A DNA stretch of 54,237 nucleotides from Burkholderiales bacterium (GTDB taxonomy: Bacteria; Pseudomonadota; Gammaproteobacteria; Burkholderiales; Burkholderiaceae_C): contig JAPLPQ010000019.1 of assembly GCA_026400105.1 (NCBI GenBank), positions 1-54,237 of the forward strand, read 5' to 3'. Positions 31,337 to 36,279 of this stretch are shown in pieces. The notes below the pieces were generated by a model. That model ran no database searches. It saw nothing but the letters and a program-made list of their open reading frames with translations, and had not been told where the DNA came from. Each line of letters opens with the position of its first letter. Positions within the stretch are counted from its first letter, which is position 1. The position numbers were made by a program, and so were the translations under genes.

Positions 31337-31657
31337 ATGAACACCATAGCCGCCACACCGATGTCCGATGCCATCTACAGCTTCGGTTCCGGGCTCACTT
31401 TCCACCAGGCCCCGGCGATACGACAGGCCCTGCTGCAGGCGTTCGAGCAAGGCACCCGGCGCTTTGACCTGAGCCGGGTCGAGTCCTTTGACAGCGCCGG
31501 AGCGCAATTGCTGATTGCTTTGGTCAAGACCGCCGAGGCGGCAGGTCAGGCCATCGAGTGGGAACGGCTGTCGAGCGAGGTCTCCAGCGCCCTCAGCGAA
31601 CTCGGACTGCCCAGCCTGACTCGCCTGCGCACCCCACTCACGAGTACAGCGCCATGA
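31337..31657 (+). CDS. STAS-domain protein (anti-sigma-factor antagonist-like) of the chemosensory operon
   Basis: 106 residues forming a single STAS domain. Ser53 in the motif DLSRVESFDSAGAQLL sits where SpoIIAA-type proteins are phosphorylated by a kinase and dephosphorylated by a PP2C enzyme. The start ATG has an AGGGG ribosome-binding site. Its stop overlaps the start of the giant CheA-MCP gene (ATGA), so the two are translated together. Possible roles are a switch output of the array or a scaffold; neither is shown. The receiver-PP2C protein at the left end of the window could act on it. Confidence 0.85.
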   Translation: MNTIAATPMSDAIYSFGSGLTFHQAPAIRQALLQAFEQGTRRFDLSRVESFDSAGAQLLIALVKTAEAAGQAIEWERLSSEVSSALSELGLPSLTRLRTPLTSTAP

Positions 31658-34600: not shown

Positions 34601-36279
34601 GCGTCAACAAGGCGGGCCAGACCGTGTACCTGCAGGCGGCCTATGCCCCGGTCAAGGACGACATGGGCCGGATCGTCAAGTACATCAAGCTGGCGACCGA
34701 CATCAGCGCGCAGGTCGAGGCCTCCAACATGCTGGAGCAGGCGGTGGAGCAGGCCCAGCGCGTGACCACGGCGGCGCGCAACGGCGACCTCGAGCAGCGC
34801 ATTCCGCTCGAAGGCAAGGTCGGTCAGATCCGCACCCTGTGCGAGGGCGTCAACAACCTGATGGAGACCACCGCAACGGTCTTCACCGACATCCAGCGCG
34901 TCTTCAGCCACCTGTCGGCCGGCGATCTGTCGGAACGCATCACGCGCGACTATGCCGGCTCGTTCGCCCAGATCAAGGACGATGCCAACGCCACCAGCGA
35001 CAAGCTCGCGGGCGTGATCGGCGACGTCGACCAGGTCATGCGTGCCCTGGCCGCTGGCGACCTGACCCAGCGCATCACGCGCGAGGCCAACGGGGTGTTC
35101 GGACAGGTCAAGCTCAACCTCAACCGCGCGATCGACGCGGTGGCCCAGCTGGTGTCGGACGCTGACATGCTGTCCGCCGCCGCAGTGCAGGGCCGGTTGC
35201 TGACGCGCGCCGATGCGGGCAAGCACCAGGGCGAGTTCCGCAAGATCGTCGAAGGGGTCAACGGCACGCTCGACGCCATCGTCAATCCGCTGCAGGAGAT
35301 CCAGAACGTGCTGCAGCTGATGGAGCGCGGCGACATGACGCAGACGGTCGATGGCGCCTACCAGGGCGCGTTCGCCGAGATCAAGGACGTCATCAACAAC
35401 ACCGTGGGCAAGCTGGCCGAAACCCTGCAGGAGGTGCGCGCCGCCGCCGATGCGCTGACCAGCGCCACCGGCCAGATCGCCTCGACCTCGCAGTCGCTGT
35501 CGCAGGCGGCCAGCGAACAGGCCGCGACCGCGGACCAGACCACCGACTCGATCCAGATCATGTCGGGCTCGATCAGCCAGAACTCCGACAACGCCAGGAT
35601 CACCGACGGCATCGCCACCCAGGCCGCCAAGGAAGCGGCCGAAGGCGGTCTGGCCGTGACCCAGACCGTCGATGCGATGAAGCAGATCGCGACCCGGGTC
35701 TCGATCATCGACGACATTGCCTACCAGACCAATCTGCTCGCGCTCAATGCGGCGATCGAGGCCGCGCGCGCTGGCGAGCATGGCCGCGGCTTCGCCGTGG
35801 TGGCGGCGGAAGTGCGCAAGCTGGCCGAGCGCAGCCAGGTCGCCGCGCAGGAGATCGGCCAGCTCGCCACCAACTCGGTCGGCATGGCCGAGCGCGCCGG
35901 CCTGCTGCTGACCGCGATGGTGCCCTCGATCCGCAAGACCTCCGATCTGGTGCAGGAGATTGCCGCGGCCAGCGCCGAGCAGACCGAGAGCGTGGCCCAG
36001 ATCAACTCGGCCATGGACCAGCTCGGACAGGCGACCCAGCACAACGCGGCCGCCTCCGAGGAACTGGCGGCCACGGCCGAGGAAATGTCGGGCCAGGCGG
36101 CCCAGCTGCAGCAGATGATGAGCTTCTTCAAGAGCGGCCACCACCAGGCGGAAAGCTTCACGAGCCCGGGCCGGCTGCGCCTGGAGCAGCGGCCCGCACC
36201 GCGCCGCGCGCTGAACTTCAGTGCGATGCCGATGCGCGATCCGCTCGCGATCGACGAGTCGAGCTTCACGCAGTACTGA
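31654..36279 (+). CDS. CheA-PAS-PAS-polyHAMP-chemoreceptor fusion protein
   Basis: One uninterrupted 1541-residue frame. Order: Hpt (phospho-His49 in AAHNIKGTAGMFG); a P2-like RR-docking domain (about 145-265); an Ala/Pro linker; dimerisation helices (from about 354); HATPase with N469 (LIRNALDHGLE), D509-G511 (VSDDGRGL) and G560 (GRGVGMDVV); a CheW-like P5 domain (about 590-732); coiled coil; two PAS domains (about 785-900 and 908-1022); five HAMP-like repeats (1025-1263); and an MCP signalling hairpin whose tip DDIAYQTNLLALNAAIEA lies near 1351-1400. No membrane helix or signal peptide is visible, so it should be a cytosolic sensor kinase array in one chain. Ordinary CheA is about 650-750 residues. 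A GTG at codon 751 could be a relic of a separate receptor gene. Confidence 0.92.
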   Translation: MNDDLIDSSLDMFLEESRLMLEDFEQALLAMAEASHDLETLNSAFRAAHNIKGTAGMFGFERVVEFTHEVEALLDRMRAGTQAIDKAAVQLLLECLDQIELLLHELSDSSQSHLNQQRSRQLMLKLDALKDGDGAGNGDSSATSQPGAEPAAPAAVAEWLLGIRFGPDNLRDGYDPLAFVRYLGQLGELLAVQALTDELPALEQLDAERCELGLLLHLRSSASREQIVQAFDFVADSCLLRLLPAPFERSALQAQMGEIEPDPDRLQSMLRQLGVWPDGDGDGATLAPTAAAMVAPDSKGESDADAEEDELERLFEACQQAYVAPAPLAATPPAPAPPAEPPAPAREKPAEESRHIRVPADKLDELISQIGELVIAVSSAKIVAEKHKITEFSEIAQRLDKLVEGARDHSLKLRMVPVGDTFARFKRIVYDVSHALGKEAELLISGGETELDKSMVEQLMDPLTHLIRNALDHGLETSAERLARGKAASGQIRLNAYHDTGAIVIEVSDDGRGLSRERIMAKAIERGLVARDARLSDEQVWNLVFLPGFSTAEQVTDLSGRGVGMDVVRRNIEALRGEVKLASREGEGSSVQIRLPLTLAIIDGFLVEVAGSSFVLPLDGVEECIEVPELAGQPLAAASYFERRNSVVPLLCLRRHFKLDGPESRRSSIVIVRHGAQRVGLLVDRLHGEHQTVIKPLGRLFSRLRSISGSAILGSGSVALILDIAALLADASTLHLPAAPSARLAAPSSSVKQHQLERRQAALLAAEHELAQTRERLSEVESELKVRTDIMNLTSIVSEADKRGDILSINDKFIEVSQYSSHELLGRPHNTTRHPDMPRETFKQLWSTIGRGEIFRGVIKNRAKDGTPYYVDAVVAPIMGANGKPMKYLGVRYDITANEIERQNARGILEAIDASYAYIEFDLNAQVLSVNDKFLQLMGYQRHEVIGKPHRMFVDPAQAATPGYSQFWSELGNGRPRNEVFKRVNKAGQTVYLQAAYAPVKDDMGRIVKYIKLATDISAQVEASNMLEQAVEQAQRVTTAARNGDLEQRIPLEGKVGQIRTLCEGVNNLMETTATVFTDIQRVFSHLSAGDLSERITRDYAGSFAQIKDDANATSDKLAGVIGDVDQVMRALAAGDLTQRITREANGVFGQVKLNLNRAIDAVAQLVSDADMLSAAAVQGRLLTRADAGKHQGEFRKIVEGVNGTLDAIVNPLQEIQNVLQLMERGDMTQTVDGAYQGAFAEIKDVINNTVGKLAETLQEVRAAADALTSATGQIASTSQSLSQAASEQAATADQTTDSIQIMSGSISQNSDNARITDGIATQAAKEAAEGGLAVTQTVDAMKQIATRVSIIDDIAYQTNLLALNAAIEAARAGEHGRGFAVVAAEVRKLAERSQVAAQEIGQLATNSVGMAERAGLLLTAMVPSIRKTSDLVQEIAAASAEQTESVAQINSAMDQLGQATQHNAAASEELAATAEEMSGQAAQLQQMMSFFKSGHHQAESFTSPGRLRLEQRPAPRRALNFSAMPMRDPLAIDESSFTQY

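Follow-up and report, generated by a model that had tools for sequence, protein, structure and literature searches.

Chemosensory arrays are lattices of separate receptors and kinases, with about six receptor dimers per kinase dimer. What, then, is to be made of a locus at which one reading frame codes for both, so that receptor and kinase are not separate chains as in a canonical array? The stretch of DNA analysed here (the window, 54,237 nucleotides) is contig C98 of a Malikia (Comamonadaceae) assembly of 3.07 Mb, 110 contigs and 84% completeness. On its forward strand, positions 31654 to 36279 form a single, stop-free open frame of 1541 codons. The initial annotation had read this frame as a CheA kinase and a cytosolic receptor, with the key motifs of both, in one uninterrupted 1541-residue protein, and translation, Pfam matches and motif searches bear this out. 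The stop or frameshift near codons 735-785 that it had named as fatal to that reading is absent from the sequence of this assembly, and domain scores far over the Pfam cut-offs rule out a chance open frame.

The cheA-derived part of the gene (31654 to 33916, forward strand) retains all four CheA core domains. Hpt, or P1 (residues 10-100), H-kinase_dim (354-403), HATPase_c (462-598) and CheW, or P5 (604-730), all score over cut-off; Pfam scores given here are for the whole protein and over the curated cut-off unless stated otherwise. His49 is present together with an N box (465-474), G1 (509-513), F (545-550) and G2 (560-568), which we take to be the phosphorylatable histidine and the boxes of the ATP site. 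The P2-like segment of the initial annotation has no Pfam match but can be aligned to the corresponding region in related CheAs. In the receptor-derived part (33917 to 36279, forward strand) a coiled coil is followed by two PAS folds within residues 792-1021 (PAS_8 merely at its cut-off), tandem HAMPs (HAMP at residues 1028-1071 and three stretches of HAMP_2) and MCPsignal (1320-1479; 5.8e-34). Thus, the domain order runs from CheA through two PAS domains and the HAMPs to the MCP tip. The hairpin tip is intact (1360-1394) and the protein ends in ESSFTQY, both presumably with their usual receptor roles; the methylation-site motif has one loose match, at 1465. Pfam matched no transmembrane domain in the fusion, and the receptor part appears from its sequence to be cytosolic.

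The first PAS domain points to what may be sensed. PAS1 matches the solved PAS domain of Aer (8dik; E 8.5e-25) over its whole length, with RHPDMP common to both, and also matches the sensor protein 3ewk (E 3.4e-26). We therefore predict that PAS1 binds FAD as in Aer and serves redox sensing. Compared with Aer-type redox or aerotaxis receptors, the window adds a second PAS domain and five HAMP-like repeats downstream of PAS1, as well as the fusion to CheA.

The fused gene sits in a cluster on the forward strand. A STAS-domain gene comes first (31337 to 31657; STAS_2, 3.3e-16) and shares an ATGA overlap with the fusion; cheW follows (36279 to 36728; CheW, 5.8e-37) with a one-base overlap, then cheR (36725 to 37525; CheR, 5.9e-45), so that the STAS/fusion, fusion/cheW and cheW/cheR junctions are overlaps of 1 to 4 bases. 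The last gene is cheB (37597 to 38697; CheB_methylest, 2.2e-64), whose receiver domain (Response_reg, 7.6e-23) is the sole receiver of the cluster. Neither cheY nor cheD was found in the cluster (window 31337-38697), unlike several related clusters, in which one or two receiver genes precede cheA. Elsewhere in the same genome, contig C53 carries FliG and small single-receiver genes, and the genome as a whole has 17 MCPsignal matches (16 over cut-off) and three H-kinase_dim matches. In one congener (G002), the STAS gene of the corresponding cluster (L028:6036-6680) is eroded, just 37 end residues matching the window's STAS protein, whereas a second congener (G003) retains 98.

The origin of the junction can be read from these relatives. 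We compared four further genomes of the genus and found the locus in two of them, G002 and G003; in the other two, CheA and MCP matches are only about 35-45% identical. Neighbours and gene order in G002 and G003 are like those of the window, and CheA is 82-83% and the receptor 81-85% identical. However, cheA and the receptor are two genes in both, the stop of the former and the start of the latter overlapping as ATGA. Between the matching points both genomes hold exactly 71 bases that are absent from the window, and these contain the stop codon of cheA, the start codon of the receptor gene and about 24 codons of the receptor, by which the congeners' receptors are longer at the N-terminus. Because 71 is not a multiple of three, their absence joins two frames into one, at base 33916/33917 on the forward strand, inside codon 755. 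The junction lies mid-contig, 34 kb into 54 kb; by eye, the ends of the gap show no obvious repeat that would suggest a simple mis-join, and the junction region has a single match in the assembly, with no unfused copy found there. We infer that a true and recent deletion probably created the fusion. Among what is lost is SWxARLxAG, a weakly amphipathic N-terminal motif common to the stand-alone relatives of the receptor. The receptor described initially as complete is thus complete in its tip and motifs, but lacks about 24 N-terminal residues that are conserved in those relatives.

Close relatives suggest a late event. When the protein collection was queried with CheA plus the receptor tip, the first 13 proteins among the best 120 of 7,999 matches listed (P0242-P0254; 744-772 aa, 78-96% identical) were stand-alone CheAs in 13 of 13 cases, and the window groups with them in a tree of 236/237 CheA cores. 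The C-terminus is KQHP in five of the first six of these CheAs and KKHP in the sixth; the window has KQHQLERR at this point. Both congeners that have the locus (2/2) are unfused, and on these, the nearest CheAs and the Comamonadaceae survey described below we rejected the idea of a fused gene common to the genus or family. Being private within what was searched, the fusion is probably young, and on sequence comparison it looks both private and recent.

No decay was seen in the fused gene. We computed dN/dS for CheA, receptor and CheW; against G002/G003 the window gives 0.154/0.122 for CheA, 0.106/0.099 for the receptor and 0.109/0.380 for CheW. Unique changes in window/G002/G003 number 45/40/52 of 748 positions in CheA, 47/70/45 of 786 in the receptor and 17/8/5 of 149 in CheW, so that CheW is the outlier on the window side, both in its unique changes and in its dN/dS of 0.38 to G003. 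Low dN/dS is to be expected in a young fusion in any case, and CheAs as much as 96% identical are unfused; there is no sign of selection for the fusion itself.

The initial annotation had recommended a database search for chains that carry both HATPase/CheW and MCP domains. This search yielded four other such proteins, on three further branches, none of them described in the papers on CheA or arrays cited here. An MCP domain occurs in five of the 120 matches listed for a CheA-core search (the best 120 of 7,454) and in five of the 120 listed for the CheA-plus-tip search. P0126, P0135, P0148 and P0149, the last with 36 member sequences, are in both listings. All four resemble the window in having H-kinase_dim, HATPase_c, CheW and MCPsignal with CheA first and the receptor second, CheA being joined to the receptor's N-terminal side, remote from the tip to which CheA binds; for them too, docking on the tips of neighbours is predicted. 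They differ in their CheA, which is 45-53% identical, and in lying on other branches of the tree. P0148 and P0149 share one branch, whereas P0126 and P0135, both long-branched, are mutually nearest by distance, which makes their independence of each other less sure. Their receptor parts differ as well: P0126 and P0135 carry a 4HB sensor in place of PAS, and P0148 and P0149 carry HAMP_2 repeats. Unlike the window fusion, P0135 is without an Hpt match. In P0126, CheA is joined directly ahead of what by eye resembles a first membrane helix.

Two further proteins were not counted. In P0313 (1013 aa), a broken fusion or a chimeric assembly, a truncated CheA is followed at once by HAMP_2 repeats and an MCP domain; this CheA ends inside the HATPase region and no CheW match is listed, so that it is not a fusion of complete parts. 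P0176 is CheA-like and without an Hpt match; ahead of its CheA core, before the dimerisation domain, lies a helical stretch that resembles MCP weakly (28.5 bits; cut-off 34.6). A whole-protein query gave no CheA domains among the best 120 of 3,077 matches, a list crowded by receptors.

Genome surveys extend this picture of rarity. Matches turned up in 378 of 399 Comamonadaceae genomes, in 143 of 369 genomes of the class at E 1e-90 and in 87 of 399 Burkholderiales at E 1e-150; the three sets share some genomes, and the best rows of each were listed. We translated all listed rows with an open frame over 1000, the window excepted, together with further loci, and none of the 52 other cheA frames was fused to an MCP. 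The further fusions that long open frames had suggested proved on translation to be distinct cheA and mcp genes, many of them sharing a frame but interrupted by stops, or frames whose open stretch lay only upstream of cheA; a long open-frame value is therefore no proof of fusion. At 16 of the 52 translated loci, which were partly chosen for long frames, mcp begins exactly where cheA stops and in frame with it. A query with the whole fusion aligns over both genes at L071-L076 and at further loci in Burkholderiales, where mcp follows cheA head to tail in one frame and one to three stop codons separate the two. A Rhodocyclaceae genome (L034:7238-9535) may have CheA divided between two genes, with Hpt matching in one frame and the P2-to-CheW stretch in the next. 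Fusion of abutting, same-frame genes takes little mutation yet is seldom seen, a rarity that would fit selection against such fusions.

No natural CheA-MCP fusion was recognised among the papers listed in searches of the open-access literature, although comparable proteins are already in the protein collection; a 'CheA-MCP' match for Helicobacter suis names an interaction modulator. The survey of 13,673 CheAs by Berry et al. (2023) describes P2, CheY-like and CheC/CheX additions (PMC10782961); the window shares the four core domains with these architectures, but the survey's main text is without MCP or PAS additions and contains neither 'MCP' nor 'PAS'. The initial statement that no characterised example is known therefore holds for the open-access literature and for the main text of that survey.

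How such a chain might work is constrained by its geometry. AlphaFold was run on residues 599-1541 with 39 sequences (mean pLDDT 72, pTM 0.38). In the model both PAS domains are predicted confidently, with 87-98 in most blocks, an unbroken helix over residues 749-794 leads into PAS1, and the hairpin helices are 134 and 117 residues long. P5 is unresolved in the model, and docking is therefore judged here by counting residues. By these counts, the linker after P5 can extend about 10 nm at the most, against about 17-20 nm for a single hairpin arm, and five HAMPs and two PAS domains lie between linker and hairpin. P5 binds near the receptor tip. The linker is too short for the chain's own tip, which makes docking there unlikely; CheA would instead dock on the tips of neighbours.

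Our tentative answer, a leaning that falls short of even confidence, is that loss of the 71 bases fused cheA and the receptor gene, and that the product is probably an ordinary CheA tethered 1:1 to a predicted redox-sensing cytosolic receptor and predicted to dock on neighbours, not on its own tip. The two receptor chains of one CheA dimer would then pair with each other, and the signal, starting at the receptor tips, would reach the kinase and its His49 by way of CheW and P5; phosphate would go on to the CheB receiver or to a CheY encoded elsewhere. On this reading, autophosphorylation of the kinase would be under receptor control. The tether would set the ratio and position of receptor and kinase, and we propose no new phospho-chemistry; for the ratio to be 1:1, the chain would have to be produced and to escape cleavage.

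A first alternative is that the fusion is real but a lesion: CheA would serve other receptors of the cell, and the attached receptor, mis-anchored, would be an appendage with little function in a system that is being lost. Consistent with this, the fusion occurs in one genome only, the receptor has lost its conserved N-terminus, the cluster is without cheY and the locus is missing in two of four congeners; erosion of the STAS gene in G002's version of the cluster and the rarity of CheA-MCP fusions elsewhere (0/52 frames) point the same way. However, no further stop or frameshift interrupts the 1541 codons, dN/dS is low in both halves, and the tip and C-terminal motif are retained. We regard such a lesion as somewhat unlikely.

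The junction could also be an artefact of assembly or strain mixture, the population having two overlapping genes as in the relatives. A fragmentary assembly (110 contigs) would make room for this, as would the nearest CheAs, all unfused, and the want of a second sample of the window's fusion among the matches listed. Against it, a 71-base gap is atypical of single-base errors, and the mid-contig position, the failure to find an unfused copy in the assembly and the lack of an obvious repeat at the gap ends all argue for a real junction. Such an error thus seems unlikely to us.

It is tempting to picture a more elaborate design. Cytoplasmic arrays, in the parts of PMC3964821 that we draw on, have two baseplates about 27-35 nm apart; the window receptor is likewise apparently cytosolic, as in the two-layer arrays of Rhodobacter sphaeroides and Vibrio cholerae, in which, however, kinase and receptor are separate proteins and the N-terminal parts of the receptors meet in the middle of the sandwich (PMC3964821). 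In a membrane-free two-layer lattice whose receptor length approximates the baseplate spacing, each chain could span the gap, with CheA in one baseplate and its own tip in the opposite one, giving a covalently cross-bridged 1:1 array. If this were true, such a lattice would have been invented repeatedly, as the CheA-first fusions on other branches would then show. We consider it very improbable. The new array geometry offered initially does not stand as an established design: the fusion is known from one assembly, the nearest CheAs are unfused and the 71-base gap accounts for it. About as improbable is the isolated signalling unit also put forward initially, in which receptor and kinase of one dimer would control each other without an array through the helix joining P5 to PAS1: the covalent link and the predicted helix 749-794 could let P5 feel PAS movement from behind, but P5 is anchored at the end of the receptor farthest from the tip, the linker cannot carry it to the tip of its own long receptor, and tip, cheW, cheR and cheB are retained as in array systems.

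Taken together, the evidence from sequence speaks for a recent and private event that joined two neighbouring genes rather than for an established array architecture of a new kind. The layout seen in relatives, with mcp directly 3' of cheA, shows how such fusions can arise. A natural 1:1 chain with the kinase on the wrong end of its receptor offers a ready test of whether the ratio and geometry of the array are needed, for which the close unfused relatives provide the control. The fusion is rare and probably very recent, and it would bind together, one to one, two array parts that are normally separate.
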